This document shows positions 34,159-64,000 of a DNA stretch of 64,000 nucleotides, one piece after another. This stretch comes from Aquiluna sp. (GTDB taxonomy: Bacteria; Actinomycetota; Actinomycetes; Actinomycetales; Microbacteriaceae), in assembly GCA_029241985.1 (NCBI GenBank), contig JAQWUU010000029.1:1-64000 (forward strand), read 5' to 3'. The notes under the pieces were generated by a model that was not told where the DNA came from, ran no database searches, and was given only the letters and a program-made list of their open reading frames with translations. The stretch's first letter is position 1, and every line of letters begins with the position of its first letter. Position numbers and translations under genes: made by a program.

Positions 34159-34210
34159 CTGCGAATAACATAGGGACCGAGCTCCAAAAAAAACTTAGAA
34201 GAGGTAAAGC

Positions 34211-35348: not shown

Positions 35349-35349
35349 A

Positions 35350-36273: not shown

Positions 36274-36299
36274 CATAGGGGTTCTAAGAAAGGTGAGGT

Positions 36300-40312: not shown

Positions 40313-40359
40313 GTCCAGATAAGGTTAGGGCATCAAAAAATATTTAGCGGGGCCAAAAC

Positions 40360-42098: not shown

Positions 42099-42100
42099 CG

Positions 42101-44085: not shown

Positions 44086-44112
44086 TATTGCTCCCTAATT
44101 CGATCTATTGAA

Positions 44113-44655: not shown

Positions 44656-44692
44656 CTGATCCTCTTGTTTGTTTAGGGACTAGATTACTGCC

Positions 44693-46093
44693 ATGGCGTT
44701 TCCTTCAATACCTATGAACCCTAGTTGGGTAGAACCGGCAAGCAAATTCGTTGACTCCCAGTTTCCAAGTGCAATTGGGTCACTTGGAAAGCTTGTGAAG
44801 ATTCCTGGTATCGCTTGGCCAAGCTTTGACCCGGAGAACTTAGAACTGTCTGCAGCAGCAGTGGCAAATGAATTTCGAAATTTGGAGTTCTTTGACTTCG
44901 TTGACATCCGTCGCTCGTTGAAGCCGTCAGGTGAACAAGGTTCGCCGGCGGTTTTGGCTAGGCGTCAAGGTTCCCCGGATGCCCCGCATATCCTGCTTTA
45001 CGCGCACCACGATGTCCAGCCTCCGGGAGATTTAGAGCTTTGGAATACAGCACCTTTCGAAGCAACGCTTGTGGGGGAGAGGCTCTTTGGAAGAGGAGCT
45101 TCCGACGATAAAGCAGGAATAGTTGCGCACCTGCATTCGATAAAGACCCTCATTGCACTGGTAAACAAGGTGAATTTGGGAATTACTGTCTTCATCGAAG
45201 GAGAAGAAGAGGCCGGCTCGGAGTCGTTTCCAGCATTTCTCGCTGATAACAAGGTCGATTTGGCCGCGGATCTGATTGTTGTTGCTGACAGTTCAAACTG
45301 GACTGAGGAAATACCGGCGTTGACGACCTCGTTACGCGGCGCCGTCTCACAAACGTTCACTCTTCACACCCTCGACCATGCTGTTCACTCAGGAATGTAT
45401 GGCGGGCCCCTGCCTGACGCGGCAACGGCAATGATTCAGTTACTTGCAACCCTGCATGATCGCAAGGGTGATGTTGCCATCGAAGGCCTAACCTCAGTAC
45501 TCACAGCCGGACCGGCAATGGACATCGAAGCATTCTCGGTTGCAGCAGGCCTACTGCCCGGCGTTGAAAGGATTGGGGGAAAACCCGTCACTCAACAAAT
45601 CTGGGGAGAACCAGCAGTGACAATAATTGGCATGGATATTCCAGCTGTCGATGTTTCGTCCAATACTGCTCAACCTTCGATTCGCGCTCGTGTCTCACTG
45701 AGGCTATCGCCGAGCCAAGATCCGCAATCAGGCCTCGAAGCCTTGAAGGCACACCTTTTGAAGCACGCTCCCTATGGTGCGCGGGTAGAGTTCGGCAGGC
45801 ACGAGGTCGGCCCAGGCTATCTCGCCAAAGATGGCTGGGCTGCCAACCTGGCGCACGAAGCATTGAGCGCTGCCTGGCCCAATAAAAGCGTGAACATCGG
45901 TATTGGGGGGTCGATACCTTTTATTTCCCAATTTGCAGCAGTCTTCCCGCAAGCCGAAATACTCGTCACAGGAGTTGAAGAGCCAGATTCAAGAGCGCAT
46001 TCTCCAAACGAGTCTCAGCATCTGCCGACACTCAGGAGGGCAATCTTGGCGCAGAGCCTTATTCTCCTAAACGGGAATGACTTATTGAAATAA
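44693..46093 (+). CDS. M20 family dipeptidase
   Basis: HILLYAHHDVQPPGDLELWNTAPFEA, GRGASDDKAGIVAHL, EGEEEAGSESF. Confidence 0.94.
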   Translation: MAFPSIPMNPSWVEPASKFVDSQFPSAIGSLGKLVKIPGIAWPSFDPENLELSAAAVANEFRNLEFFDFVDIRRSLKPSGEQGSPAVLARRQGSPDAPHILLYAHHDVQPPGDLELWNTAPFEATLVGERLFGRGASDDKAGIVAHLHSIKTLIALVNKVNLGITVFIEGEEEAGSESFPAFLADNKVDLAADLIVVADSSNWTEEIPALTTSLRGAVSQTFTLHTLDHAVHSGMYGGPLPDAATAMIQLLATLHDRKGDVAIEGLTSVLTAGPAMDIEAFSVAAGLLPGVERIGGKPVTQQIWGEPAVTIIGMDIPAVDVSSNTAQPSIRARVSLRLSPSQDPQSGLEALKAHLLKHAPYGARVEFGRHEVGPGYLAKDGWAANLAHEALSAAWPNKSVNIGIGGSIPFISQFAAVFPQAEILVTGVEEPDSRAHSPNESQHLPTLRRAILAQSLILLNGNDLLK

Positions 46094-46123
46094 CGCGTTA
46101 AACTACTCAACGGAGGTTCCAAA

Positions 46124-46465
46124 ATGACTCAAGCCACAGCTCACGGCGTAAAGCTCACTGATTTTGCAGTAAACAAGGTCCGCTCGCTCCTTGAAGCAGA
46201 GGGGCGCGATGATCTTCGGTTGCGCGTGTCTGTTCAGCCAGGCGGATGTTCAGGCCTTATCTATCAGCTTTTCTTTGATGAGCAACTTGAAGAAATCGAC
46301 GCGGTTGTTGACTTCAATGGCGTCGAGGTAGTTGTCGATCCGATGAGTGTTCCCTATCTAGACGGAGCTTCAATTGATTTTGAGGACACCATCCAAAAAC
46401 AGGGTTTCACGATTGACAACCCGAATGCTGATGGCAGCTGCGCTTGCGGAGATTCTTTCAGCTAA
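46124..46465 (+). CDS. erpA: iron-sulfur cluster insertion protein (HesB/IscA/ErpA family)
   Basis: LRLRVSVQPGGCSGLIYQLFFDE and C-terminal GSCACGDSFS. Confidence 0.94.
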   Translation: MTQATAHGVKLTDFAVNKVRSLLEAEGRDDLRLRVSVQPGGCSGLIYQLFFDEQLEEIDAVVDFNGVEVVVDPMSVPYLDGASIDFEDTIQKQGFTIDNPNADGSCACGDSFS

Positions 46466-46545
46466 AGCGCGGTTTTCGGGCGTCCCGGGACAACTCATCA
46501 GTTAGACTTGAAACACGTCTTAGGCGATGTTAGAAGGATATTTCA

Positions 46546-47400
46546 TTGAGTAAAAACCGGTCTAGAGCAACTGCGATAGCTGCAATTACGGGGCTTTCCC
46601 TGCTGTTAGCTGGCTGCAGTCCAGAAATGCAAAGAGGGTTCCTGCCGGACGCCTCCGGTGTGACAAACCACACTGACAGAATCATTGGTCTCTGGACCAC
46701 TTCGTGGATTGTGCTCTTGGCTGTTGGCGTTGTTTCTTGGGGTTTGATGGCTTGGGCCTTGATTGTTTATCGCCGTCGTAAGGGCGAGACTGGGCTCCCT
46801 GCTCAAATGAGATACAACATGCCAATTGAGACACTTTTTACAGTCGTTCCTCTTATTTTGGTGCTTGGCTTTTTCGCCTTCACCGCCAGGGACATGACCG
46901 CCATAGAGGCCAAAACTGAAAATCCAGATGTTTTCATCGAGGTAATTGGTAAGCAGTGGAGCTGGGACTTCAATTACGTAGACGACAACGTTTACGACAG
47001 CGGGATCCAGGCTCAGGTGGTTGGAAACCAGGACAATGTTCTAGAAACTTTGCCAACGCTATACCTTCCAGTCGGAAAGACGGTTCGGATAGATCTAAGC
47101 TCCAGAGATGTCATCCACTCATTTTGGGTAGTCGAATTCCTTTATAAGAAAGACATGTTCCCAGGACACACCAACAGCATGTATTTCACTCCTCTGCAAG
47201 AGGGCACCTACGTTGGAAAGTGTGCAGAATTATGTGGTGAGTACCACTCAATGATGCTTTTCAATGTGAAGGTTGTCTCTCAGACCGAATACGACGCTCA
47301 AATGTCAACTTTGGCAGCCCAGGGCAACGTGGGGCAGCTCTCAACCGAATACGACCGCAACCAGAATCTCCCTGGCGGAGATCCTGGGATTAGAGGCTAG
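46546..47400 (+). CDS. ctaC: cytochrome c oxidase subunit II
   Basis: Lipobox-like [13 protein letters not shown]; CuA ligands [12 protein letters not shown]. Confidence 0.96.
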
Positions 47401-47405
47401 GAAAA

Positions 47406-49094
47406 ATGGCTACGATCACTGAAACCAGAACGAATCCGCCTGCTTTTACTCCAAAGCGCAGTAAAGGTGAGATTCTTGTCGATTGGCTGACTACCACCGA
47501 TCACAAGAAAATTGGTTACCTCTACCTAATTACATCTTTCATGTACTTCCTGATTGCTGGCGTAATGGCGCTTGTAATTCGAGCGCAGCTAGCTCTTCCA
47601 GGCCTAGAGATCGTCGCAACCAAAGAGCAGTACAACCAGCTATTCACGATGCACGGCACAATCATGCTTTTGATGTTCGCGACACCGCTGTTTGCTGGTT
47701 TTGCCAACGTGCTAATGCCAGTTCAAATTGGTGCGCCAGATGTGGCCTTCCCAAGACTTAACGCGATCGCTTACTGGTTCTTTAGCTTCGGAAGCCTCAT
47801 TGCAGTTTCAGGCTTCTTCACTCCTCAGGGAGCTGCCAGCTTCGGTTGGTTTGCTTATGCTCCGCTCTCGAACACGACGTTCTCACCCGGAATCGGTGGA
47901 GACCTTTGGGTATTTGGACTAGCACTCTCAGGTTTTGGAACAATCCTTGGAGCCGTCAATTTCATCACCACTGTAATCACGATGCGTGCTCCAGGCATGA
48001 CAATGTGGCGCATGCCAATCTTTACCTGGAACACTTTGGTCACCTCAATCTTGGTAATCATGTGTTTCCCTCCTCTTGCTGCAGCTTTGTTTGCGCTTGG
48101 AGCAGACAGGCAATTTGGGGCTCACATTTTTGATCCAGAAAACGGTGGAGCCATGCTCTGGCAGCACCTGTTCTGGTTCTTTGGTCACCCAGAGGTTTAC
48201 ATCATTGCCCTGCCATTCTTTGGAATCGTTTCGGAAATCTTCCCTGTCTTCAGCAGGAAGCCAATTTTTGGTTACAAGACTCTCGTTTACGCGACAATCG
48301 CAATTGCAGCGCTGTCGATGACAGTGTGGGCGCACCACATGTACGTAACCGGGCAGGTGCTGTTGCCATTCTTCGCTTTCACCACGATGCTAATTGCGGT
48401 GCCCACGGGTGTGAAGATATTTAACTGGATCGGAACGCTCTGGCGAGGGTCCATAACCTTTGAGACTCCGATGCTATGGAGCCTGGGTTTCTTGGTTAGC
48501 TTCGTATTTGGAGGGCTTACCGGTGTGATTCTTGCCTCTCCGGCGCTTGACTTCCACATCTCTGACACTTACTTCGTTGTTGCCCACTTCCACTACGTTG
48601 TCTTTGGAACTGTGGTGTTCGCAATGTTTGCAGGTTTCTATTTCTGGTGGCCAAAATTCACCGGCAAGATGCTAAACGAACGCCTTGGAAAAATTCACTT
48701 CTGGGTTTTGTTTATCGGCTTCCACACCACTTTCCTAGTTCAGCACTGGCTTGGAGTTTTGGGCATGCCTCGACGCTACGCAACCTACCTGGTAGAAGAT
48801 GGGTTCACTGAGATGAACCTGATCTCGACCGCCGGTGCGGCGCTGCTCGCTCTGTCGATGGTGCCATTCTTCTTCAATGTTTGGATAACCTACCGAACTG
48901 GCAAGAAAGTAGAGTTGAAGGACCCATGGGGCTATGGCCGTTCACTCGAGTGGGCTACCGAGTCACCAATTCCTCGTCATAACTTCCACTCGATTCCGCG
49001 AATTCGTTCTGAGTCGCCAGCTTTTGACTTGAACTACCCTGAACATGCCGCGCCGGAAGCGAAGGCTTCTTATAGCAAGGAGGGTATCTCCTAA
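47406..49094 (+). CDS. ctaD: cytochrome c oxidase subunit I
   Basis: 562 aa; [62 protein letters not shown]. Confidence 0.98.
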
Positions 49095-49507
49095 TGCGTT
49101 CGAATATTTGGGTCCTACTTGTTATGGCTGCATATTTCACGGTTGCAGACATAGGTTATGCAATCTGGTCGTATTTATACTTTGGGGCTGTAGAGCCGAT
49201 CGGGACGGCAGCTATCGGGCTGCTCGTGATTCTGTCTCTATTCATCGCATTTTACCTTTACAGCGGTATGCGCAGAAGTGCAGTTCTACCTGAAGACAAC
49301 CTGGATGGGGAAATAGCCGAGGATGCCGGCGAGGTTGGCTTCTTTAGCCCCTGGAGCTGGTGGCCAGTAGCGCTGGGCCTAGGAGCCGCACTGGTCTTCC
49401 TTTCATTGGCAGTAGGTTGGTGGCTTACATACATAGCCGTGCCGTTTGCAATAGTTGCAGTGGTTGGTTTTGTGTTTGAATACTCGCGCGGAGCACACGC
49501 TCACTAA
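49094..49507 (+). CDS. ctaF: actinobacterial cytochrome c oxidase subunit IV
   Basis: 137 aa, four TM-like segments, GFFSPWSWWPVALGLGAALVFLSLAVGWWLTYIAVP; directly downstream of ctaD. Confidence 0.92.
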   Translation: MRSNIWVLLVMAAYFTVADIGYAIWSYLYFGAVEPIGTAAIGLLVILSLFIAFYLYSGMRRSAVLPEDNLDGEIAEDAGEVGFFSPWSWWPVALGLGAALVFLSLAVGWWLTYIAVPFAIVAVVGFVFEYSRGAHAH

Positions 49508-49860
49508 TTGATTGAGGCCCCATTCGTTGGGCCGAACCAAATTTGCCCATGCCTCTTCCTTGCATAAAGCGATCTGGCATGCTGAACCAGAAGGTCTAAA
49601 CCATCTTTTACTGCCACTGAAGGCGGCTCAGGAGGGCTACATCTTTGGATGTCTCTCTGACGTCTCTGGAGCGAATCTGTCTTGAAGAATCGCATTGATC
49701 TAGTGGTGAAGCGATGATTGCAATTGGTCTTGCAGGTCCTGCGAATACAGCGTCGCCCATGCGATCAAGGACTGTTGCCTCAAGTATTTGGCAATCACTG
49801 TGTCGATTCACTTCATAAACCAGGGCGCCTCGGTGATGGCTTCTTGGGGAGTGGGTAAAA

Positions 49861-49897
49861 CTAAACCCCAGGTGAAATGATCACCCGGGGTTTTAGT
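49861..49897. terminator. likely bidirectional terminator at the 3' end of qcrB
   Basis: CCCCAGGTGA-AATGA-TCACCCGGGG with A-rich left and TTTTA right flank, just downstream of the qcrB stop (49910). Confidence 0.75.
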
Positions 49898-49909
49898 TCT
49901 GATTTTCTA

Positions 49910-51556
49910 CTACGCCTTGATTGACTTCTGCTTCTTCTTTGGCTTTTCTGAAACAGCTGCAGGTGCATGATCTGCATGCGCTAGCTCGTACTCGGCCTTT
50001 GAAACTGGAGCAATTCGATCCTCGAAGTAGATCCGTGATACAGCAGAGCGGAGCCTGTTGCCTATAGTAATTTTTCCATTCTCATCGGGTCTTGCAAGAA
50101 TGGGTTCGTAGTTCTTGTAGTCGACTAGTTTCCATAGCTCATACTCGTCCACTGGCTCGTGGACTTCGATGAATTCACCGTGAGGCAGACGCACAATTCT
50201 TCCAGTTTCGCGACCGTGAAGCACCATCTCGCGGTCCTTGCGCTGCAACGACAGGCAGGCTCGCTTGGTTACCCAGTAAGCAATTACAGGACCAATAATT
50301 AGCAAGATCTGCATTGCCACAAGCACCTGGTTCAGTGACATCTGGAAGTTTGTTGCAATGAGGTCTGTTGACGCTCCAGCCCAAAGAACGCCATAGAACG
50401 TTACTCCCGCAGCTCCGATGGCGGTTCTGGTCGGGTTGTTTCTTGGGCGGTCAAGAACGTGGTGTTCGCGCTTGTCCTTGGTCACCCAGTTTTCAATGAA
50501 AGGGTAGGCGGCGACAAGAGCCAAGAAGACCAATGAGACAACAAGTGGCACCATTACACCCATCGGGATGACGAAGCCGAAGACGGAGATGTCCCAACCT
50601 GACGGGGCAAGCCTTAGCGCTCCGTCTAGCCAGCCGATGTACCAGTCAGGCTGGGTTCCAGCCGAGACGGGGGAGGGGTCATAGGGGCCGTAGTTCCAAA
50701 TCGGGTTGATGGTAAATGTCGCTGAAATAGCTGCGATTACACCGAATACCAGGAAGAAGAATCCACCAGCCTTGGCAACGTAGACAGGTGCTAGCGGGTA
50801 ACCAACAACGTTGTCGTCAGTTCGTCCAGGACCCGAGTAGTGAGTGTGCTTGTGGATTATCACCATCATGAGGTGAACACCTATAAGCACGATGATCAGA
50901 GCCGGCACAATCATGATGTGGAGGCTGTAGAGTCTTGCGACAACCTCGGTGCCCGGGAACTCACCACCGAAGAAGCCAGAGCTGATTGCAGGGCCGATTA
51001 GCGGAATTCCCTTGATCATGCCGTCGATGATGCGCAGTCCGTTTCCGGAAAGAAGGTCATCCGGTAGCGAGTAGCCTGTGAACCCGGCTGCCATGCCCAT
51101 TACGAAAAGCAAGAACCCAACCACCCAGTTCAACTCTCGTGGCTTACGGAATGCACCTGTGAAGAACACTCTAAGCATGTGAAGTCCCGCAGCTGCTACA
51201 AACAGCAGGGCTGCCCAGTGGTGAACCTGGCGCATAATCAAACCACCGCGAATGTCGAAGCTGATGTCCAGGCTTGATGCATAGGCGATAGACATCTGTG
51301 CACCCTTTAGGGGAGCGTAGCTACCGTCATAGTGAACCTCAGCCATCGATGGCTGATAGAAAAAAGTCAGGAAAGTTCCGGACAACACCAAAATCACAAA
51401 ACTGTAGAGGGCGACCTCACCAAGCATGAAGCTCCAGTGGTCCGGGAAAACCTTCCGGCCGAACCCCTTCAGTACTCCAGCTACGCTTAGTCGCTCATCT
51501 AGGTAGTTCGCGGTGTTTCCAACGAAACCAGATTTCTTTTCAGTGGTATTAGTCAT
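49910..51556 (-). CDS. qcrB: cytochrome bc1 complex cytochrome b subunit
   Basis: 548 aa; QVHHWAALLFVAAAGLHMLRVFFTGAFRKPRELNW, GYSLPDDLLSGNGLRI, YPLAPVYVAKAGG. Confidence 0.97.
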   Translation of the reverse strand: MTNTTEKKSGFVGNTANYLDERLSVAGVLKGFGRKVFPDHWSFMLGEVALYSFVILVLSGTFLTFFYQPSMAEVHYDGSYAPLKGAQMSIAYASSLDISFDIRGGLIMRQVHHWAALLFVAAAGLHMLRVFFTGAFRKPRELNWVVGFLLFVMGMAAGFTGYSLPDDLLSGNGLRIIDGMIKGIPLIGPAISSGFFGGEFPGTEVVARLYSLHIMIVPALIIVLIGVHLMMVIIHKHTHYSGPGRTDDNVVGYPLAPVYVAKAGGFFFLVFGVIAAISATFTINPIWNYGPYDPSPVSAGTQPDWYIGWLDGALRLAPSGWDISVFGFVIPMGVMVPLVVSLVFLALVAAYPFIENWVTKDKREHHVLDRPRNNPTRTAIGAAGVTFYGVLWAGASTDLIATNFQMSLNQVLVAMQILLIIGPVIAYWVTKRACLSLQRKDREMVLHGRETGRIVRLPHGEFIEVHEPVDEYELWKLVDYKNYEPILARPDENGKITIGNRLRSAVSRIYFEDRIAPVSKAEYELAHADHAPAAVSEKPKKKQKSIKA

Positions 51557-52576
51557 TTACTTCCTCATGTCCCAGAACGATGGACCAACAGGGTCCAAGA
51601 AGTCGCTTTGTGCAATTAGGTAACCTTCAGCATCGACCGCGATGGGAAGCTGAGGCAGTGGTCTTGATGCGGGGCCAAATACAACCTCACAGTGGTTTGC
51701 CAAGTCAAAAGTCGACTGGTGGCAGGGGCACAACAGGTGGTGCGTGTGCTGCTCATATAGAGCAACCGGACATCCAACGTGAGTGCAAATCTTCGAATAG
51801 GCAACAATTCCCTGGTAGCTCCAGTCGGCCTTGGCTGGGTCTTCGTTGAGATCACTCGGGTTCACTCGAACAAGAAGAACAGCCGCTTTAGCTTTTTCCT
51901 CGAGTTTGTGCTCTTCCATCTCGCTGAGGCCCTCCGGAATCACGTGAAATACTGATCCAATGGTGACATCCGATGCCTTGATTGGGATTCCGGTCGGATC
52001 TTTCGTGAGCCTGGTGCCGGGCTTCCACATCGTGTGTCGAAGAGTGTCTCCTACTACTGGTCCCAAGTCACCAAAGATAATAATCGCTGGAATCGGGAAG
52101 AATGCAATCGCTCCGTACATGCTGCGACGAATCAACTTGCGCCTGGTAAACCCTGACTCTCCGTCTGCGAGCTTTACTATCTCGAGAGCTTGAGCCCGGG
52201 TCTCATCTGAGCTTCTAGCCTGGTGGCGCATTTCTGATACTTCATTGTCTGGCATCAGAGTTTTTGCCCAGTGAACCGCTCCGAAACCGATTCCAAGCAT
52301 CGAAAGAGCCATGCCTAGGCCCATCCACAGCGCGTTATTGCGAGTAGCTGACAAGTCACCGTCAATAATCGGGAACGCAAAGAAACCCCATACGGCAATG
52401 ATTGCGCCAAGAACGCTGACACCGAACATTGCTGCAATTTGCTTTTCAGCAGTCTTGGCGTGCTTTTCGCTCTTGTCGGTCATGCGAACCCGGTGTGGTT
52501 CGATTCCAGGGTCTTTGATTGGTTTCTGTATGTCTTTTGCTAGCCCAGGGGAGTAGCTTTTTTCAATGTCGCTCAT
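51557..52576 (-). CDS. qcrA: cytochrome bc1 complex Rieske iron-sulfur subunit
   Basis: CTHVGCPVALYEQHTHHLLCPCHQSTFDL; three TM segments; ATG at 52576 preferred. Confidence 0.96.
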   Translation of the reverse strand: MSDIEKSYSPGLAKDIQKPIKDPGIEPHRVRMTDKSEKHAKTAEKQIAAMFGVSVLGAIIAVWGFFAFPIIDGDLSATRNNALWMGLGMALSMLGIGFGAVHWAKTLMPDNEVSEMRHQARSSDETRAQALEIVKLADGESGFTRRKLIRRSMYGAIAFFPIPAIIIFGDLGPVVGDTLRHTMWKPGTRLTKDPTGIPIKASDVTIGSVFHVIPEGLSEMEEHKLEEKAKAAVLLVRVNPSDLNEDPAKADWSYQGIVAYSKICTHVGCPVALYEQHTHHLLCPCHQSTFDLANHCEVVFGPASRPLPQLPIAVDAEGYLIAQSDFLDPVGPSFWDMRK

Positions 52577-52586
52577 AGCTCTTCTC

Positions 52587-53375
52587 CTAGTTCGACTTCG
52601 CGCCAAGCCATACAGTGATGGCGATGATGAAACCTAACCCAAAGATCCACGTAAATAATCCCTCGGCAACCGGTCCGATGGATCCCAATTCAAATCCACC
52701 TACGGAGTCATTCTCTTCGATGTACATCAGGTAGGTAATGATGTCTTTCTTATCTTCTGGAGTGAGGTTTGAGTCATTGAAAACAGGCATGTTTTGTGGT
52801 CCAGTGACCATGGCCTCGTAGGTGTGCTTCGGGGTGACTCCGCCGAGTGCTGGAGCAAACTTACCCTCTGTCAGCGCTCCGCCGGCCCCAACCGCATTGT
52901 GGCACATGGCGCAGTTGATTCTGAATAGTTCACCACCGTGGGTTGGGTCACCGTCTCCACGCAAATATTCCTCGTCTGGAATCGCAGGCCCCGGAGCAAG
53001 CGACGCTACATAAGCGGCCATTGCAGAAATCTGCTCCTCGGTGAACTGAACTGGCTTCTTATAAAGCTGAGGTCCTGAACCTTGGCCCGGCATTCTTCCG
53101 GTGCCTACCTGGAAATCTACCGACGCAGCTCCAACACCAATGAGGCTAGGTCCGCCGATGGCACCCTCACCGTTGGTTCCATGGCAAGATGCGCAGTTCG
53201 CAAGGAATAACTTCCTGCCCTCTTCTACCTGCTCTGGAGATCCGACCTCGGAAATCACCACATTGGTCGCTGCCGCATAGCCACCTCCAGAGAGGATCAA
53301 TCCAAGAAATACAACAATGCCGGCTGCCCAGGGGCGACGACGCATCGGTTTAGCTGAGTTCAAGTGCTTCTCCAT
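52587..53375 (-). CDS. qcrC: diheme cytochrome c subunit of the bcc complex
   Basis: Two heme motifs, CASCHGTNGEGA and CAMCHNAVGAGG; C-terminal TM. Confidence 0.96.
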   Translation of the reverse strand: MEKHLNSAKPMRRRPWAAGIVVFLGLILSGGGYAAATNVVISEVGSPEQVEEGRKLFLANCASCHGTNGEGAIGGPSLIGVGAASVDFQVGTGRMPGQGSGPQLYKKPVQFTEEQISAMAAYVASLAPGPAIPDEEYLRGDGDPTHGGELFRINCAMCHNAVGAGGALTEGKFAPALGGVTPKHTYEAMVTGPQNMPVFNDSNLTPEDKKDIITYLMYIEENDSVGGFELGSIGPVAEGLFTWIFGLGFIIAITVWLGAKSN

Positions 53376-53378
53376 TTG

Positions 53379-54002
53379 CTATCTGAGTACGTAAACGACT
53401 ACGAAAAGGCCAATCCAGACTACGTCCACAAAGTGCCAGTAATAGGAAACCACAATCGCTCCCGTGGCTTCCTTGTGACCAAAGTTCTTGGCCGCGTAAG
53501 CCCTTCCAATGATTATCAGGAAGGCCACAAGCCCCCCGATAACGTGAAGGGCGTGAAATCCCGTGGTTATGTAAAAAGCGGATCCGTATGAATTTGAGCT
53601 GAGGCTTATGCCCTCTGAAACAAGCATTGCGTACTCCCATATCTGACCAGATACGAAGACAGCGCCCATGACGTAGGTCAAGAAGAACCACTCAACCATT
53701 CCCCATTTGGCTGGGGAGAGGCCCGTTCTGCGCGGCTGGAGTCGCTCAGCCGCGAACACACCGAACTGAGCCGTGAATGAGCTTGCAACGAGGATCAAGG
53801 TGTTGATCAGGGCAAACGGCACGTTCAAAATTTGTGCATCATTGGCCCAAAGGTCGGGAGCCCCAGCGCGAAGGCTGAAATACATGGCAAATAGGCCGGC
53901 AAAAAACATAACTTCGCTGCCAAGCCAGACGATAGTTCCTACAGATGTAGAACTCGGTCTATTGATGGCCATGGGCGCGACAGGTGCAGAAGTAGCAGAC
54001 AT
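53379..54002 (-). CDS. ctaE: cytochrome c oxidase subunit III
   Basis: [73 protein letters not shown] at 54002. Confidence 0.96.
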
Positions 54003-54105
54003 GTTCTTAAGTTTACTCGACGGAACGGCGCTGAGCTCTGGAAAAAGCGAGGTTTTGGAACTTTTTTGCAAACTGTTTATGGTTCGCGATGGTTAGACTT
54101 TCAAA

Positions 54106-55170
54106 ATGCACGAACACAGCTGGAAATCAATCCTCTCAGCGCTCATAAATGGCGAGAATCTAAGCCGAGAAGCATGCAGATGGGCTATGGCTGAAATCAT
54201 GGCTGGTCAGGCGACAGACTCGCAAATAGCTGGTTTCATGCTGGGGCTCAGAACCAAGGGTGAAACAAGCCAAGAACTTGCTGGTCTGGTTGATGTAATG
54301 CTTGAAAACGCCACGAAACTTGAAATATCAGACGACGCCGTTGACATAGTGGGCACCGGGGGAGACCTGGTTGGAACCGTCAACATATCGTCGATGGCCT
54401 CTGTTGTGGCCCGGGCTGCCGGTATTCCAGTTCTGAAACATGGATCGAGAAGCGCTTCCGGGAAGACCGGGTCCTCTGAAATGCTGGAGAGACTCGGGAT
54501 CAATTTGGAGTTGAGCCCCTCACAGGTGGTCGAAGTGTTTGAACAGCAGGGGATTACCTTCTTTTTCGCTCCCGTTTTTCACCCTGCCATGCGACATGTT
54601 GCTCGCGCCAGGAAAGAACTCGGTGTGCCCACGACGTTTAATTTTCTTGGCCCCCTTGCCAATCCAGTACAACCAATTGCAACAGCTCTCGGAGTTGCAA
54701 ATTCAAAAATTGCGCCCCTTATGGCTGCAGAACTTGCCCAAAGAGGAAGAACCGCATTGGTTTTTAGGTCCAATGATGGGCTGGACGAGCTCAGCACCAC
54801 CGCATTAAACACGATTTGGCAGGTTGTTGATGGCGTTGTGGAGGAATACGCATTTGACGCTGAAGCTATTGGGGTGCCGCGATCCAGCCAGGAGCAGTTG
54901 CTGGGGGGCGACGCTGAACATAACTCGAGAGTGGCAACCAGCCTGTTCCAAGGCCTTGATTTTAAAAAATCCTCAGCCATCAGTGATATCGTCTGCTTGA
55001 ACGCTGCCGCTGGAATTGTCGCTTACGAACTTGCCAATGACCATCAACAGCGGTTTGTTCCACTTGAAGACAGACTAAAAGCAGGATTTCTTGCCGCCAA
55101 GTCAGCCATCTCCGGGGGTATGGCCGAAACCACAGCCCGGGAATGGGCTAAAGCCACTCAAGCCTTCTAA
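54106..55170 (+). CDS. trpD: anthranilate phosphoribosyltransferase
   Basis: DIVGTGGDLVGTVNISSMASVVARAAGIPVLKHGSRSASGKTGSSEMLERLG, FNFLGPLANP. Confidence 0.95.
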   Translation: MHEHSWKSILSALINGENLSREACRWAMAEIMAGQATDSQIAGFMLGLRTKGETSQELAGLVDVMLENATKLEISDDAVDIVGTGGDLVGTVNISSMASVVARAAGIPVLKHGSRSASGKTGSSEMLERLGINLELSPSQVVEVFEQQGITFFFAPVFHPAMRHVARARKELGVPTTFNFLGPLANPVQPIATALGVANSKIAPLMAAELAQRGRTALVFRSNDGLDELSTTALNTIWQVVDGVVEEYAFDAEAIGVPRSSQEQLLGGDAEHNSRVATSLFQGLDFKKSSAISDIVCLNAAAGIVAYELANDHQQRFVPLEDRLKAGFLAAKSAISGGMAETTAREWAKATQAF

Positions 55171-55207
55171 CATGCCAAACCCATCGGGGAGCGTTCCAGG
55201 ATTAACT

Positions 55208-55235
55208 ACTTGACATAATGTTTATTATCGGCGTT
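55208..55235 (-). other. dif: putative chromosomal dif site (XerC/XerD recombination site)
   Basis: Reverse-strand 28-mer AACGCCGATAATAAACATTATGTCAAGT matches the actinobacterial dif consensus TTSRCCGATAATVNACATTATGTCAAGT (recalled) except at the first two positions; intergenic. Confidence 0.9.
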
Positions 55236-55273
55236 TATGGGAAGTGATCGGGCCGTCCTCGAGAGGGCTGTTG

Positions 55274-55885
55274 CTAGACGCGACCGGACTTGTCTGCAAG
55301 CCCAAATAGACGCATTGAGAGCTGGTTTAGGTAGCCAATAGACAGCGCAAATAGCAGTGTGCCCTCACGAACTTGACCTCCCAGCAGGAATCCGATTGTG
55401 ACAACGATGATTTCCACTGTCGTTCTGGTAATCCAGAACGGGGCGTTGAACCTCTTTGCGAGCCCCATCATCAGACCATCTCTTGGGCCTTTTCCGAAGC
55501 CACAAGAGATATAGAGACCAGTTGCGTAAGAGATGATGAGCAGGCCTGCGATGAAAAGCGCCAAATTCAGCCAATAGCTTTCGATTTCTGGCCACAGCGG
55601 CATGGTCAGGTCTGCAAATAATCCGACCAATATCGCGTTTAGTACTGACCCGATACCGGGTTTAACTTTGAGTGGTATCCAGAAAAGCATCACAATCAAG
55701 CTGACGGCGATTGTTGCCTGTCCAAAGGTGAGTGTTGACTGCAGTGAGAGGCCCTGAGCCAAAACGTCCCAGGGAGGAATTCCGATACCCGCGTGAACCA
55801 TCATGCCTAGGCCAGTGCCGTAGATAGCCAGGCCAATAATTAGCTTGGCAAACCGGTAATAGAAATTAGACTTGAGCACCAGCAC
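55274..55885 (-). CDS. YitT/YczE-like integral membrane protein
   Basis: 203 aa, about five TM segments; GLAIYGTGLGMMVHAGIGIPPWDVLAQGLS, GFGKGPRDGLMMGL. Confidence 0.88.
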   Translation of the reverse strand: MLVLKSNFYYRFAKLIIGLAIYGTGLGMMVHAGIGIPPWDVLAQGLSLQSTLTFGQATIAVSLIVMLFWIPLKVKPGIGSVLNAILVGLFADLTMPLWPEIESYWLNLALFIAGLLIISYATGLYISCGFGKGPRDGLMMGLAKRFNAPFWITRTTVEIIVVTIGFLLGGQVREGTLLFALSIGYLNQLSMRLFGLADKSGRV

Positions 55886-55905
55886 AGGTTAGTGCTACCG
55901 GAGGA

Positions 55906-56667
55906 GTGAAATTGGCTAATTCGAACTATTTCGACTCCACTAAGCCAAGGGCTTTTGCGCACCGAGGCTTTAGTCATGGACTCCCAGGTGTTGATGAAAA
56001 TTCCCTTGAGGCTTTTCAAGCTGCGATCGACCAAGGCGCCGAATTTATAGAGACTGACACCCAAGCAAGCGGCGATGGTGTCGCGGTTATCTTTCACGAC
56101 GATGACCTCCTAAGACTTTGTGGTCTCGCGGCCAAAGTTCACGAACTATCGATAACCGAATTGAAAATGCTTTCTCTTCCAAATGGATCGAGAATCCCAA
56201 CGTTGGAAGAAGCCCTTCTGGCTTTTCCGGCCGTCAAGCTCAACATCGATGTGAAGTCCAAGGCAGCGATTATCCCAACCGCAAGGGCTATTGAAAACAC
56301 AAATTCGCATTCGCGAGTCCTGGTTTCTAGCTTTTCAGATCGCCGCAGGCGCGCCACTCTGGGGCTGCTAAGCCAACGGGTTGCAACTTCTGGGTCTATG
56401 TCCACGGTCTTGCAAATCTGGCTTTCGCACAAATTATTGGGCGGATTGGGTCTTGTTTTTTTGACGAAGTCTATTGATGCGCTCCAGCTTCCTCGAAATT
56501 ATGGACCATTAAATTTCGCCGATCGTAGCTTTATTGAGAGGCTCCAGAAGCTTGACACAGAGATTCATTTTTGGACGATAAACGATCCCCTAGAAATGAC
56601 CGAGCTAATCCAGCTTGGTGCTGCGGGGATTGTGACAGATCGGATCGATTTTGCTTCCAACCTGTGA
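55906..56667 (+). CDS. glycerophosphodiester phosphodiesterase family protein
   Basis: FAHRGFSHGLPGVDENSLEAFQAAIDQGAEFIETDTQASGDGVAVIFHDDDLLRL. Confidence 0.94.
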   Translation: MKLANSNYFDSTKPRAFAHRGFSHGLPGVDENSLEAFQAAIDQGAEFIETDTQASGDGVAVIFHDDDLLRLCGLAAKVHELSITELKMLSLPNGSRIPTLEEALLAFPAVKLNIDVKSKAAIIPTARAIENTNSHSRVLVSSFSDRRRRATLGLLSQRVATSGSMSTVLQIWLSHKLLGGLGLVFLTKSIDALQLPRNYGPLNFADRSFIERLQKLDTEIHFWTINDPLEMTELIQLGAAGIVTDRIDFASNL

Positions 56668-56676
56668 TTGTTCTGT

Positions 56677-56710
56677 GAACCTCATCTGAAGCGGAATTGG
56701 GCTGAGGTTC
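56677..56710 (+). promoter_or_regulatory. inverted repeat in the rbpA leader/promoter region
   Basis: GAACCTCA (56677-56684) ... TGAGGTTC (56703-56710), perfect 8-bp arms, upstream of the rbpA start at 56739. Confidence 0.55.
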
Positions 56711-56738
56711 TCGTGTTGTTCCTCGCACGGAGGTCACA

Positions 56739-57098
56739 ATGTCTGAATCAATGCGCGGGATGCGTCTCGGCTCACAATCGCTAGAGAGCGACAAGGGGGT
56801 CGAGCTTTCGGCACGCCAGCTTGTCGAATTCAAGTGCCCGAAGGGTCACGACTTTACTCTTGCGTTCGCCGAAGGTGTTGAGCTCCCCTTGGTTTGGCAG
56901 TGCCAGCGCTGCCAGGCTTCCGCGCAAAGATTTGCTGATGGAGAATTGGTCACTGGAGAGGCTACTGAGGAAGACGCTCCTCGGACTCACTATGACATGG
57001 TCAAAGAAAGACGTTCCGAGCAAGAACTAGAAGATCTGCTGGAAGAAATGTTGGTGAGCATGCGAAAGCGCAGGGCTCAAGGGCACGTCAGCGCCTAA
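56739..57098 (+). CDS. rbpA: RNA polymerase-binding protein RbpA
   Basis: SMRGMRLGSQSLESDKG-like N-terminus, paired Cys (CPKGH...CQRCQ), RTHYDMVKERRSEQELEDLLEEML. Confidence 0.95.
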   Translation: MSESMRGMRLGSQSLESDKGVELSARQLVEFKCPKGHDFTLAFAEGVELPLVWQCQRCQASAQRFADGELVTGEATEEDAPRTHYDMVKERRSEQELEDLLEEMLVSMRKRRAQGHVSA

Positions 57099-57786
57099 TC
57101 CCCCACTTTGTGCATAGCCAAAATGCTTCTAGCACAATCTTCAACGTCATTTTGCTCGTGCCTTCAGCTCTTTCCACAAAGCTAATTGGAACCTCGATCA
57201 CATCAAGCCCATTTTCGATTGAGAGTAAAGTCATTTCGACTTGAAAGCCGTAGCCTTGCGCTTGGACATTATTCAGATCTAGCATCGCTAGCCCTCTCAC
57301 CGGGTAGACGCGATAGCCTGCAGTCATATCGAGAACTTTTGTTTGCAGCATTTTTCGAGCATAGAAATTACCAAGACGGGAAATAGCAACGCGATACCAG
57401 GGCCAATTTTGTACCTCTCCCCCTTCAACCCACCGTGATCCGATAACAACACAATCATCGTTTGCCATTGCTAAGAGGTCAGGAAGATGCTTGGGCTGGT
57501 GAGAGCCATCTGCGTCCATCTGAATCACATAGTCGTAGTTGTTTGTCTTTGCCCATTCGAAACCAGCCAGATAAGCCTTGCCAAGCCCGGCCTTAGATTC
57601 ACGGTGTAACACTGAGACCCGAGAATCTTGTCGGCTGAGATTATTGGCGAGGTCCCCAGTGCCATCCGGACTGTTGTCGTCAATGATGAGCAAATCTATC
57701 CCACCGACCGTGTCCAGCACCTTTCTGACGGTTGCTTCGATGTTTTGACACTCGTTGAATGTGGGCATGAGGACGACAAACCTCAT
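57088..57786 (-). CDS. polyprenol monophosphomannose synthase
   Basis: GT2 fold; VLMPTFNECQNIEATVRKVLD, DLLIIDDNSPDGTGDLA, IQMDADGSHQPKHLP; adjacent to lnt and rbpA. Confidence 0.93.
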   Translation of the reverse strand: MRFVVLMPTFNECQNIEATVRKVLDTVGGIDLLIIDDNSPDGTGDLANNLSRQDSRVSVLHRESKAGLGKAYLAGFEWAKTNNYDYVIQMDADGSHQPKHLPDLLAMANDDCVVIGSRWVEGGEVQNWPWYRVAISRLGNFYARKMLQTKVLDMTAGYRVYPVRGLAMLDLNNVQAQGYGFQVEMTLLSIENGLDVIEVPISFVERAEGTSKMTLKIVLEAFWLCTKWGIRR

Positions 57787-59300
57787 CTGTGTTTCTTTCT
57801 AAGATAAAAAATGGCCAACATCCCGAAGACAGCTATCGAGTTCACATAATCAAACCAGGGACCAATAATCATGGCTGGCGTAGTGCCACTGTAAAGCGGG
57901 ACCTCTTCCACCATGGCTCCGGGTTCATACCAAACCAGTTCACTCAAGACTTCTCCGGTCGGAAGATAGATTGCAGACAGCCCAACCGTAGAGATATTCA
58001 CGACCGACCTTCCGGTTTCAATAGCTCTAAGCTGGGCAATTCCTGCTTGCTGATAGGTCTCATCGGAGTAACCAAAATCTGCGTTGTTGGTCTGCGAGAG
58101 AATTACTTCGGCGCCTCCAGCGACCAAGTCACGAAGAATGCCGTCCTCCGCTATCTCGAAACAGATAAGAGTTCCAGCGACAAAGTCATCTTCGATTTCA
58201 TAGATACCGTCCCTCACACCAAACGAGAACCCTTCGGGCACTAAGTCGATGAGGTCCGGTGCGAAAAGTCGCCAAAATTCTCGATTTGGAACAAATTCTG
58301 CGAAAGGAACCGGTTGCTTCTTGTCGTAGTAGTCGACCGCACCAATTTCGGGCCGCCAAAGCAAAGTTGAGTTGAAATTCTCACCTCCGCGACTCGTGAT
58401 CGTTCCAAAGGAGAAAGGTGCACCAATACGGATGGCAATTTCATCAATCTTCTGGGCGGCAGCGACACTTCGAAGTGGGTCAACATCTGAGGAGTTTTCT
58501 GGCCAAACCAAAAGGTCTACCCGATCTGAAAGATCGGAGTCAAAAACAAGCTCAGTAGCATCCAAGTGGTTTTGAAGAATTGTTCCGCGGTCGAGGTTTG
58601 AAAACAGGCCGGCGTTTGCATTGCCCTGCACAGCAGCAATTACCTTGGTTGATGTTTCTATCGGGTTGTTCAAAAACATTGTGATTACGGGAACAAGCAC
58701 AATGGCTCCAATAACAGCAAATGCCGGTACTCTTCGGATCGCATTGCGACCCTTTCGGTGAAGAAACCAGATCGCAAGTATCGAACCGATAAGCGCGAGC
58801 ATGAAGGTGAGTAGCGAGAGGCCGCCAAAGAAGACCCACTGGTTCATAAAGCTCTCGGGTTGAGTCATGGCCAATCTCGACCAGGGAAACCCTCCGTAAG
58901 GAAAATTATTGGCTAAGTACTCTCTGGCCGTCCAGATCGAGGCTGCTGCCACAGCAAATAGCAGAAGAGCATTTTTCTTAGGTTTCCACTTTTTGTAGAG
59001 CCAAGCAGTTGCTCCCACAGCCAGAGCGAAAAAGAAGGATTGGAGAGTACTCAAGGCGATTAGCGGCACCGGACCCAAATAAAGAGAGATCCACTCGATG
59101 TGGGAGATGTAAAAAGCTTGGCTTGCAATAAAACCAACGAGCGCGGCACTCCAGAATCCAAGCCCGAGGCTCGCTAGCAGAATCACCGCGGGAATCAGCG
59201 GCGCAAGTATCCAAATGTTTTCCGTGGGAAACGCGTAAAGCGCAATGAGCCCACCGCCCGCGCCGAGCGGAATCCGCCAAAGTAGCTGTGGAATCTTCAC
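57783..59300 (-). CDS. lnt: apolipoprotein N-acyltransferase
   Basis: 505 aa; N-terminal TM region, C-terminal nitrilase-like domain (WPENSSDVDP, KKQPVPFAEFVP, GTLICFEIAEDGILRDLVAGGAEVILSQTNNADFG). Confidence 0.94.
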   Translation of the reverse strand: MKIPQLLWRIPLGAGGGLIALYAFPTENIWILAPLIPAVILLASLGLGFWSAALVGFIASQAFYISHIEWISLYLGPVPLIALSTLQSFFFALAVGATAWLYKKWKPKKNALLLFAVAAASIWTAREYLANNFPYGGFPWSRLAMTQPESFMNQWVFFGGLSLLTFMLALIGSILAIWFLHRKGRNAIRRVPAFAVIGAIVLVPVITMFLNNPIETSTKVIAAVQGNANAGLFSNLDRGTILQNHLDATELVFDSDLSDRVDLLVWPENSSDVDPLRSVAAAQKIDEIAIRIGAPFSFGTITSRGGENFNSTLLWRPEIGAVDYYDKKQPVPFAEFVPNREFWRLFAPDLIDLVPEGFSFGVRDGIYEIEDDFVAGTLICFEIAEDGILRDLVAGGAEVILSQTNNADFGYSDETYQQAGIAQLRAIETGRSVVNISTVGLSAIYLPTGEVLSELVWYEPGAMVEEVPLYSGTTPAMIIGPWFDYVNSIAVFGMLAIFYLRKKHR

Positions 59301-59316
59301 GCCTCTACTCTAAGTT

Positions 59317-61770
59317 CTAGACGTAGTAGCTGTAAGCCACAATGCCTCTTTTGACCAAGTCCATGGCGCTATAGGCATTCTCTGCAAGCTCGGCATCGGC
59401 GCCTTGCGCCAGTTGGTCCAGGAGGTCAATAACCTGCTTGCTCCAACGAATAAAGTCACCAGCAACCAATCCCGAAAGCTTGAGTATGTCATCGAGTTTT
59501 GCTCCTGTTGCCCAGCGATATATTGGCCACGCCAACCCCAGATCAAGCGGGGATTCTTGGGTCAGATCAAATCTGTCTTGCATTTCAGAAAGCTCATCCT
59601 GAACAAGTTCAGTCCTTTCAAGAACCTCGCGGAAGTTACCCTTTGGCAGCTTCGGCTCGTAGTCTCCATCGTCCCTGCGATTCTCATAAACCAGAGCCGC
59701 TGCCATGGCTGCCAACGATGGCGCATCTAGTTGTTTCCAGACACCCTCATTTACGCACTGTGCAATTAGTAGGTCGCGCTCGCCGTAGATTTTGCCTAGC
59801 CTTCTGCCTGCGTCGGTGATTTCCAGGTCATCACCGTCTGGTTGAAGGTAACGAAGCTCTTCGAGCAAGCTGCAAATCCTGTTGAACACCTTTGCCACTT
59901 GATTCGTTCTGTTTTCGATCTGGTTTATGGTGGCGTCAATTTCCTGTCGTAGTTTTTGGTAGCGCTCCCCCCACCTAGCATGTGCTTCACGCTCGCTGCA
60001 GCCGTGGCAGTTATGTGACCTCAGGGTGCGCTTGAGATCAGCAATCTCCGACTCATGCTTCCTCATCGTCTTGGTTTGGCGAATGTCTTTGCCACCGCGG
60101 GAGCGCCACGAAGCCCCTTTTCGCTCTAGGTCTGAGATTCTGCGCCTCAGGCCTGAGTACTCTTTGAAGTCTCCAAGGTGGCACTGCATCGCCTCTTCAT
60201 AGCCCTCCATCGAGGACTGTTTTTCCGATATCCCTTGGGCCAACCCAACGACCGAACGATCAGCCTGAAACTGCGCAAATGAGCGCTCCAATACCTTGCT
60301 CGCCCGTTGCGCGCCAAAAGCGTCAATAAGGTTTACGGCCATGTTGTAGGTGGGTCTGAATGAGCTGTTTAGCGGGTAGGTTCGCTTGGATGCAAGCCCA
60401 GCAACCATGTTGGGGTCAAGCTGTTGACCCCAAAGAATTACAGAGTGGCCCTCAGTGTCAATTCCGCGTCGGCCCGCTCTTCCGGTCAGCTGGGTGTACT
60501 CACCCGCGGTGACAGACACTCTTGCCTCGCCATTGAATTTGTCCAGTCTTTCCAGTACCACGGTCCGAGCGGGCATGTTGATTCCGAGCGCAAGGGTTTC
60601 GGTGGCAAATACCACTCGCACTAACTTGCGAAGGAATAGCTCCTCGACAACCTCCTTGAAGGCTGGCAGCATCCCAGCGTGATGGGCCGCATAACCACGT
60701 TCCAGGGAGCTCAGCCAATCGAAGTATCCGAGCGTGTCTAGGTCCTCATCAGCAATTGAGCTGCATCTAGCCTCTGCCAAGCGACGAATTTCAAGTGCTT
60801 CTTCCCTTGACGTGAGTCGAACGCCAGCTCGTCGACATGCTGCAACCGAAGCCTCACAACCAACCCTTGAAAAAATGAAGAAAATGGCCGGCAGTAAATC
60901 AGCTCTATCTAAAGCGTCTACAACTTCTGGCTTTTCAAGTCTTGGGAATCTGCGATCGTTGTGACCTCGGTAATTTGAGGACCCACGGGGTTTGGGTCCT
61001 CGGTGAGGTGCCCGTTGCCTAGCCTGATGTTTTTGCAGGAGTTCCGGGTTCACTCTCATTTGCTTGCTACCAGTTTCAAACAGCTCAAGAAACTCATCCC
61101 CAAAAAGGACGTGCTGATGCAATGGAACGGGCCTAATTTCAGAAACGATGATCTCAGTGTTGCCGCGGACTTCGGCTAGCCAGGCTCCAAACTCCTCAGC
61201 ATTTGAGACTGTTGCGCTGAGTGACACTACTTTCACGTCTTTTGGCAGGTGAAGAATTACCTCTTCCCAGACTGCGCCCCTGAACCTGTCGGCTAGGTAA
61301 TGAACCTCGTCCATCACAACAAAACCTAAATCCATCAAGGTCGTGCTGGTCGCATAGATCATGTTTCTAAGCACTTCAGTGGTCATGACCACTATCTCTG
61401 CCTCAGAGTTGTTGTTGGTGTCGCCTGTGAGCAACCCGACTCGATCTTTTCCGTAGCGAGCGGCAAGTTCAGCAAATTTCTGATTGCTTAGAGCTTTGAT
61501 GGGTGTCGTATAAAACACCTTTTGGCCTTTTGCTAAGGCTAAATGAATTGCGAATTCACCAACCACTGTCTTGCCTGCACCGGTTGGAGCAGCCACCAAG
61601 ACACCGGACCCTGCCTCCAGAGCTAAGCAGGCTTTTTCTTGGAAATCATCCAGGGGGAACCGAAGTTCGTGGGTGAACAGTTCAAATTCGGGGAATTTTG
61701 ATTTGGATTTTGCCCGCTGATATTTATCGGCGGGGCTCAAATCATTCGACTTCGATGTCATCATCGACAA
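59317..61770 (-). CDS. helY: DEAD/DEAH-box helicase, Ski2/Mtr4-like (HelY)
   Basis: 817 aa; VAAPTGAGKTVVGEFAIHLAL, VMDEVHYLADRFRGAVWEEVILHLP, TGRAGRRGIDTEGH. Confidence 0.95.
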   Translation of the reverse strand: MSMMTSKSNDLSPADKYQRAKSKSKFPEFELFTHELRFPLDDFQEKACLALEAGSGVLVAAPTGAGKTVVGEFAIHLALAKGQKVFYTTPIKALSNQKFAELAARYGKDRVGLLTGDTNNNSEAEIVVMTTEVLRNMIYATSTTLMDLGFVVMDEVHYLADRFRGAVWEEVILHLPKDVKVVSLSATVSNAEEFGAWLAEVRGNTEIIVSEIRPVPLHQHVLFGDEFLELFETGSKQMRVNPELLQKHQARQRAPHRGPKPRGSSNYRGHNDRRFPRLEKPEVVDALDRADLLPAIFFIFSRVGCEASVAACRRAGVRLTSREEALEIRRLAEARCSSIADEDLDTLGYFDWLSSLERGYAAHHAGMLPAFKEVVEELFLRKLVRVVFATETLALGINMPARTVVLERLDKFNGEARVSVTAGEYTQLTGRAGRRGIDTEGHSVILWGQQLDPNMVAGLASKRTYPLNSSFRPTYNMAVNLIDAFGAQRASKVLERSFAQFQADRSVVGLAQGISEKQSSMEGYEEAMQCHLGDFKEYSGLRRRISDLERKGASWRSRGGKDIRQTKTMRKHESEIADLKRTLRSHNCHGCSEREAHARWGERYQKLRQEIDATINQIENRTNQVAKVFNRICSLLEELRYLQPDGDDLEITDAGRRLGKIYGERDLLIAQCVNEGVWKQLDAPSLAAMAAALVYENRRDDGDYEPKLPKGNFREVLERTELVQDELSEMQDRFDLTQESPLDLGLAWPIYRWATGAKLDDILKLSGLVAGDFIRWSKQVIDLLDQLAQGADAELAENAYSAMDLVKRGIVAYSYYV

Positions 61771-62530
61771 ACTTCGCTAGCTTTCTAGCTCTGCGCTTGT
61801 CATTAAGGGTAGCTATACCGACAGCGGTGAAGAAAAGTGCCGTCAATGGGGCCATGAGAAGGAACATTGACATTGGCTCGGCGGTCGGAGTTGCAAGTGC
61901 CGACACCAGGGCGATGATTGTCAGGGCAACTCTCCATGATTTGAGAATTCCTTTACCAGTTACGAGTCCGGCGAAGTTCATGAGCACCAATACAACTGGC
62001 ATTACAAAAGCCAAACCAAAAATAAGCAAGATTCGGATTGCGAACAAGACATACTCTGCTGCATTGATGACGTTGGAGCTTCCCTCTGGAGTGAAGCCAA
62101 TCAGTACCACCACGAAGCCGGGAAGCGAAGTCCAAGCAAGACCCGTGCCGACAAGGAAAAGTGGCAGGGCTGAGAACACGAAACCAATCGCATAGCGACG
62201 TTCTCTAATTTTTAGGCCGGGAGAAACAAAGGCCCATAGGTTCCATAGCCAGACCGGTGCGGTCATGATCACACCGAGGAAAATTGAGATTTGAATTCTT
62301 AGGTCGAATGCTGAAACGACTGTGCCGAAGTTGACGATTGCTTCTATCCCACGGCTGCTCGTTACCTCCAAAAGAGGGGCTTGCAGGATTCTAAAGACTG
62401 GATCGAATAAGAACCAACCTATGACTGTGCCGACAATTATGAACCCGGCCGACCACGAGAGACGTTTTCTAAACTCTCTAAGGTGTGAAGACAGGCTCAT
62501 TCGGCGCTCTGTGTTTTTGCGCCGGAGCAT
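61742..62530 (-). CDS. tatC: twin-arginine translocase subunit TatC
   Basis: MSLSSHLREFRKRLSWSAGFI, multi-TM; adjacent to tatA. Confidence 0.95.
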   Translation of the reverse strand: MLRRKNTERRMSLSSHLREFRKRLSWSAGFIIVGTVIGWFLFDPVFRILQAPLLEVTSSRGIEAIVNFGTVVSAFDLRIQISIFLGVIMTAPVWLWNLWAFVSPGLKIRERRYAIGFVFSALPLFLVGTGLAWTSLPGFVVVLIGFTPEGSSNVINAAEYVLFAIRILLIFGLAFVMPVVLVLMNFAGLVTGKGILKSWRVALTIIALVSALATPTAEPMSMFLLMAPLTALFFTAVGIATLNDKRRARKLAKFVDDDIEVE

Positions 62531-62739
62531 TAGTCTTTCTTTTTCTCACCCTCGCTAGGTGTCTCGGCGGTTACTTCCTCGGCCTTGGCCTCGGTAGCTT
62601 CACCGTTCTTGTTAATTTCCTTCTTGAAAATTCTCATTGATTGCGCAGCGCTCTTTGCCAAAGCTGGAAGCTTCGGTGCTCCCCATAGCAGAAGAACGAT
62701 TGCAAGAATGATGATCCATTCCCAGCCTTGAAGCCTCAT
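62530..62739 (-). CDS. tatA: twin-arginine translocase subunit TatA
   Basis: WIIILAIVLLLWGAPKLPALAKSAAQSMRIFKKE. Confidence 0.94.
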   Translation of the reverse strand: MRLQGWEWIIILAIVLLLWGAPKLPALAKSAAQSMRIFKKEINKNGEATEAKAEEVTAETPSEGEKKKD

Positions 62740-62741
62740 GG

Positions 62742-63053
62742 CTACCTCTTATCTATTTCAATCTCGCTGATTCGTTTGATTAGTCTACGCCTTCTTGCCT
62801 TGGCCTGTTCATCCTTCTGGCGTTGTCGTTTTCTCCTTGCGCGAAAAAGTTCCGGCAACTCCGAAGCCGTGCTCGGGGTGAGTTTTTCGGCGTCTAACGC
62901 TTCCGCGCTCTTGAAATCGTCAGTTAGGCCCTTTGCTTTTGATACCTCTTTAGCCAGGCGTTTGCCAGCGAGGGCTACACGGTAGAAGATCAAGCCAAGT
63001 ATGTATAGCCCGGCCAAAGATGTCGCGAGAAGAACCCACCCCTCAATGCTCAT
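62742..63053 (-). CDS. hypothetical protein with one N-terminal TM segment
   Basis: 103 aa ORF filling the gap between the WYL gene and tatA with 1-2 bp spacing; WVLLATSLAGLYILGLIFYRVALAGKRLAKE. Confidence 0.75.
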   Translation of the reverse strand: MSIEGWVLLATSLAGLYILGLIFYRVALAGKRLAKEVSKAKGLTDDFKSAEALDAEKLTPSTASELPELFRARRKRQRQKDEQAKARRRRLIKRISEIEIDKR

Positions 63054-64000
63054 TTAGTCCTCATTCTCCGCGATCGACTGGTCACCCAGGGCTTTTCTGG
63101 CAAATGCAGTGACAGCCTCCCTTGCCTCTGGGGGCCCTAAAACAAGCACCTCTCCCCCGTAGCGACAAACGTGCCTACCAAGCGCCTGTAGGTTACCGAC
63201 TCGGATCTTGCCTGAACTGGAGCCGTCCGCTGCCTTCTTCACATCAAGGGCGGGGAAATTCCAAAATATTTCACTGGCTTCGCTGCTGGCTTGAATTTCT
63301 ACGATGAGTTCGTCTGAAACTGCCCCAAACACTTCCACTGGAATGTCTGCAGCCAGCGCTTCTTCAGATATCGGCCCCCCGGTAGTTTTGGCCGAAATTA
63401 TTCGATCGATGCGAAAGGAGCGGACCTCTAGATTCGTGTGACACCAACCACGCAGGTAGTGCCGCTTTCCAATAAATTCAACCCTGAGTGGGTCAATCGT
63501 TCGGACTGACTTGACTCCCAGCTGGTTTACGTATTCGGCGGAAATCTGCATCCTGCTATCGACTGACCGCTGTATCTCGAGCAGCACACTCTCACTTCCT
63601 ACCGGTTGGTAGGAAGTAATCGGTGCGGATCCTGAGCCAATGATTTCCCTCACCTCTTTTAGGTCGGTATTTTCTAGAAACTGGGGCATGGCGGCAAGGT
63701 AGTCAAGGCCGGCTGCAAGCGCCGTCGTTTGGCGTTTGGATAAGAGAGGCGGTCGGTCAAGGCTTGATCGGGCTGTCGAGAAATCAACCTCACCTTCCGA
63801 GAGCAACTCTTCATCCACATAAAAGTGAGTCTCGTAGCGCCCAACGTCTTCGCTGTTTGCGATGGTAAGCACCGCCTTGGTGATTGTCTTTTCACTAAAG
63901 CCAAAGTGTCTTGCTAGCTCGCTGGTGAGCATTGGGCCATCTTTGAGGACCAGCCCAACAATGGATAGCGACAGGTTAAAAAGCCCCTCAGCGTCTATCT
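63054..64000 (-). CDS. pafC: WYL-domain transcriptional regulator, PafC-like (5' end beyond the window)
   Basis: HTH plus WYL-type region (RTIDPLRVEFIGKRHYLRGWCHTNLEVRSFRIDRI); the open frame continues without a stop to base 64000 (IDAEGLFNLSLSIVGLVLKDGPMLTSELARHFGFSEKT). Confidence 0.88.
   Translation of the reverse strand, partial: IDAEGLFNLSLSIVGLVLKDGPMLTSELARHFGFSEKTITKAVLTIANSEDVGRYETHFYVDEELLSEGEVDFSTARSSLDRPPLLSKRQTTALAAGLDYLAAMPQFLENTDLKEVREIIGSGSAPITSYQPVGSESVLLEIQRSVDSRMQISAEYVNQLGVKSVRTIDPLRVEFIGKRHYLRGWCHTNLEVRSFRIDRIISAKTTGGPISEEALAADIPVEVFGAVSDELIVEIQASSEASEIFWNFPALDVKKAADGSSSGKIRVGNLQALGRHVCRYGGEVLVLGPPEAREAVTAFARKALGDQSIAENED

Follow-up and report, generated by a model that had tools for sequence, protein, structure and literature searches.

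A dif site between convergent trpD and yczE genes

The window, by which we mean the whole stretch of 64,000 nucleotides that was analysed, forms the beginning of contig C29 (106,011 bp) in a draft assembly of Aquiluna sp. and carries the reverse-strand 28-mer AACGCCGATAATAAACATTATGTCAAGT between two convergent genes (Table 1). The initial annotation had proposed an actinobacterial dif site at this place, and an exact search of the window located the sequence there. It is the sole match in the window at up to 3 mismatches, with 0 expected in 100 shuffles. The annotation had also predicted a single copy per genome. Indeed, the 21-bp dif core occurs once in the draft genome (55 contigs, 1,310,957 bp) and still only once when up to 3 mismatches are allowed, a count whose scope is an assembly that is about 90% complete. 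The intergenic position and the assignment of one neighbour to trpD were likewise correct, while the family name given to the other neighbour, YitT-like, differs slightly from that of the family it matches, YczE (NF052291).

Table 1. Features of the dif region (window coordinates)
Feature	Position	Strand	Basis or remark
dif, 28-bp XerCD recombination site	55208..55235	-	exact; single in window and genome; conserved across Actinomycetota
putative XerC arm AACGCCGATAA	55225..55235	-	analogy with E. coli dif
putative 6-bp central region TAAACA	55219..55224	-	analogy with E. coli dif
putative XerD arm TTATGTCAAGT	55208..55218	-	analogy with E. coli dif
trpD	54106-55170	+	TIGR01245; converges on dif; neighbour kept in genus
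YczE/YitT-family membrane protein gene	55274-55885	-	NF052291 above cut-off; converges on dif; neighbour kept in genus
GGGGAG, KOPS-like, facing dif, XerD side	55186..55191	+	dif-strand +45..+50, 16 bp past XerD arm
candidate XerC-flank elements, weak	55236..55268		GGAAGTG 55240-55246, GAGAGGGC 55261-55268 (+ strand)
arm with RGGGGAG only in + orientation	1..55207	+	16 +, 0 -
arm with RGGGGAG in - orientation	55236..64000	-	4 - in window; 13 -, 1 + up to contig end

Throughout the genus dif is flanked by trpD and yczE, with glpQ also nearby at all loci but one short one, and trpD adjoins dif in several other Micrococcales too. The contig is colinear, from 2.7 kb up to its right end, with the complete chromosome of a same-genus relative, G003 (one contig, 1,362,706 bp, dnaA at 1.2 kb). 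At the left end of the contig, an ABC-F gene (window 928-2526) maps to 1,151 kb in G003 and its neighbours to 836 kb. This offset could stem from a rearrangement, from a join in the assembly or from a match to a different paralog. Window 19935-32760, at 22-35 kb from dif, holds genes for division and the wall, mraY and ftsZ among them.

The site itself is also conserved. The exact 21-bp core is present once each in 19 of the 22 same-genus relatives, and another (G009) has a variant core that was found at 3 mismatches. The core had no match in the other two of the 22, whose assemblies are 50% and 90% complete, and never did any same-genus genome searched contain more than one copy. Controls with reversed patterns gave 0 matches in the exact search and 1 match in the 3-mismatch search. 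In two relatives (G029 and G059) the 3-mismatch search hit two or more dif-like sequences, some of which may be chance matches. A scan of species genomes returned at least 119 loci with the dif core, nearly all of them from Actinomycetota. The core is also present in nine viral contigs (L235-L243), which may belong to dif-using phages or prophages.

Base counts at 147 loci reveal which positions of the 28-mer are constrained. Position 1 is A at 81 loci, T at 47, C at 16 and G at 3, and position 2 is G at 50, A at 44, T at 41 and C at 12. Because both positions vary freely, the mismatch to the actinobacterial consensus, which is confined to these two positions as the initial annotation had indicated, carries no weight. 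Positions 5-11 in the XerC arm are invariant, partly owing to the search pattern, and positions 13-14 in the central region differ between taxa. The two bases past the XerD arm (+29/+30) are strongly conserved even though they lie outside the search pattern. In E. coli, bases adjoining the XerD arm reportedly matter, which would fit this conservation.

GC skew and the orientation of RGGGGAG around dif

GC skew was drawn on the contig itself and on stretches of the G003 chromosome. The skew extremum that had been anticipated near the site is there, the cumulative maximum of the contig falling at 57,083, 1.9 kb from dif, on a plateau that starts at about 44 kb. In G003, dif (783,340) and the maximum of the detrended cumulative skew (783,540) are 200 bp apart, with the raw cumulative maximum at 795,041. 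In a relative from another genus, G032, the maximum lies 53 kb from dif within the 400 kb sampled, so skew alone would be imprecise in this genome.

Among the 7-mers of G003, GGGGGAG and AGGGGAG have the strongest strand bias. The arms of this chromosome had first been cut at an approximate origin, and a recount with dnaA as origin gave 171:20 for GGGGGAG and 103:18 for AGGGGAG. The octamer known from E. coli, GGGNAGGG, is rare and little biased in G003 and was discarded as a candidate for the motif here. RGGGGAG flips its orientation at dif in the contig, in G003 and in G032. On the contig the counts are 16:0 to the left of dif versus 1:13 to the right (Fisher p 1e-7); the sole wrong-way copy is at about 94,820, to the right of the window. 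The two arms of G003 have 159:22 and 14:117, with a gradient that runs from 75:0 at less than 100 kb from dif through 57:2 and 39:3 down to 5:5 near the origin. Thus, RGGGGAG has a leading-strand bias with a switch at dif, and in G003 both its density and its bias climb toward dif. In G032 the switch occurs between 844,854 and 846,486, next to the dif core at 846,498, and the first reversed copy adjoins dif on the XerC side. Among the matches listed from other genera, 109 of the 110 non-redundant loci are net permissive and none is net opposite, and GGGGGAG amounts to 443:8 in those listed loci (arms of at most 8 kb in sum). This pattern is the one described for KOPS and AIMS (PMC5357621, PMC5993296, PMC13342612), and it suggests that RGGGGAG may be the sequence read by FtsK. 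Copy number, GC skew and, as an independent mark, the orientation switch support the earlier proposal that dif lies in the terminus region, as do the conserved core, the conserved synteny and the FtsK gamma domain and XerC described below.

Recombination machinery and flanking elements

An FtsK with a gamma domain (E=8e-23 for that domain) is encoded on another contig, C26. Four tyrosine recombinases in the draft score above the Pfam cut-off, and one of them, which has a dprA-like gene upstream of it, is predicted to be the XerC ortholog, although both this candidate and the corresponding protein of a relative fall below the NCBIfam XerC cut-off. XerD was not found in the draft, as the XerD of a relative, which passes the NCBIfam XerD cut-off, matched only XerC and an integrase when used as query. 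Both xerC and xerD are present in five relatives, and xerD lies 62-65 kb from dif in four genomes (G003, G008, G011 and G032). In G003 it is at 844,971, and by synteny with this chromosome our contig ends about 8 kb short of xerD. Therefore, the missing XerD is most simply explained by an assembly gap, and the organism probably does possess the protein.

An ungapped alignment of 133 non-redundant loci, anchored on dif, shows strong conservation outside the 28 bp at +29/+30 and weaker conservation at -21..-15 and +40..+48, with at most 0.07 bits at positions farther out. CTCCCC, the reverse complement of GGGGAG, begins at +43..+46 in 20 of the 133 loci, several times the rate seen farther out, and smaller clusters occur near +55, +67 and +78. 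This enrichment of GGGGAG at the XerD-side distance extends across actinobacterial orders, with 6 observed versus 0.31 expected at this position in loci from outside the genus (n=74, each with a 3-kb arm). When a motif is learned in Micrococcales and applied to other orders, it peaks there at +41, and the converse holds too, but some reverse-complement controls in this clade-transfer test reach z values of up to 4.0 close by, and composition therefore contributes to the flank signal. EM log-likelihoods did not separate the flanks from control regions; the concentration of positions alone did so. The nearest inward GGGGAG is at a median distance of 392 bp on the XerD side versus 678 bp on the XerC side, and within the genus at 16 bp versus 1466 bp, distances that come from many loci with shortened arms and from related species that are not independent.

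On the XerC side, many relatives have a phased C-rich element near -22/-32 that differs between clades, lacks strand bias and generalises between clades only in part. The idea that it is a KOPS was dropped, as GAAGTGG and GAAGGGG are hardly, if at all, strand-biased in G003.

A predicted terminus recombination site and its counterparts

We conclude with a probability of roughly 0.96 that the 28-mer at 55208-55235 is a chromosomal dif site that resolves dimers via XerCD and FtsK acting on KOPS-like motifs. On the dif strand, the left arm would be bound by XerC and the right arm by XerD. If the division septum traps a chromosome dimer, FtsK would load on the oriented G-rich motifs, with GGGGAG as core and RGGGGAG as best form, which are aimed at dif from both arms, and pump DNA until it reaches the XerCD-dif complex. 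Its gamma domain would then switch on XerD so that the dimer is resolved and the fused sister chromosomes are separated before division. The FtsK gamma domain loads on KOPS and activates XerD via the same surface (PMC5052618). The GGGGAG beside dif may help FtsK to engage XerD.

It is extremely improbable that the 28-mer is not the dif of the chromosome but a Xer site used by an IMEX-type mobile element that has inserted at dif or close to it. The viral contigs with the core indicate that mobile DNA can carry dif-like sites. However, such an insertion would result in two sites, whereas the assembly has a single copy, which lies between trpD and yczE in a block that is colinear with G003, and there is no integrase among those adjacent genes that were identified. 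Hardly better are the odds that the sequence is a chance or vestigial occurrence and that the working terminus signal resides elsewhere. The failure to find XerD in the draft and the shape of the skew curve, which has a plateau between 44 and 57 kb in place of a sharp peak, could be taken in its favour; however, both the sequence and the place of dif are conserved in the genus, and in relatives the skew maximum and the motif switch coincide with dif. A dif site of the chromosome itself thus remains the reading of the 28-mer that we favour.

The GGGGAG in the XerD flank poses a separate question. Since it sits between convergent genes here, it could be part of a transcription terminator or the site of another protein rather than an FtsK motif. 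We regard this as unlikely, because the words with the strongest strand bias in the G003 chromosome have GGGGAG as their core, and because GGGGAG appears in the XerD flank in nearly one orientation alone across orders and is fixed in position relative to dif. A tentative extension, which we hold to be somewhat less probable than its opposite, is that dif in Actinobacteria belongs to a longer module. On its XerD side, an FtsK-orienting GGGGAG would keep to a preferred register, possibly joined on the XerC side by another phased element that is not a KOPS, such that FtsK would come to XerD from a single side. No description of a phased XerD-side motif was found in the open literature, with incomplete coverage; a search for GGGGGAG together with FtsK returned unrelated papers only, and a word search of the 2011 survey of dif sites (PMC3025954) found nothing on flanking or downstream sequence. 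This absence is weak evidence of novelty.

The dif copy itself is an ordinary, well-supported instance of a known signal, whereas the XerD-side motif at a fixed distance is less described. The site makes it possible to locate, in a draft assembly, the terminus of an actinobacterium with a small genome. RGGGGAG provides a sequence candidate for the motif that guides FtsK in the phylum, and the suggested asymmetry puts the nearest inward motif next to XerD, on the side at which FtsK has to act. The set of actinobacterial dif sites, for which a Frankia sequence served as seed, dates from 2011, when none of them had yet been confirmed by experiment (PMC3025954). The Frankia alni dif, CACGCCGATAATGCACATTATGTCAAGT, shares with our site the core and the arms, the single copy and the terminus position (PMC3025954), and only the first base and two variable central bases differ. 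The dif/XerCD/FtsK system of E. coli with its KOPS, GGGNAGGG, is alike in the 11-6-11 layout, in G-rich motifs aimed at dif and in the FtsK gamma domain (PMC5357621, PMC5052618), but the motif core here is GGGGAG and one copy is present at a fixed XerD-side distance. AIMS resemble RGGGGAG in their strand bias and in a density that climbs toward the terminus, although they are defined as octamers (PMC5993296) and the motif here is read as a heptamer. Plasmid Xer sites such as cer have accessory sequences (PMC5357621), and a flanking phased element is suggested here too, on the XerC side. Unlike in cer, this element is weak and clade-variable and no accessory protein was identified, and the central region of 6 bp is that of chromosomal sites.
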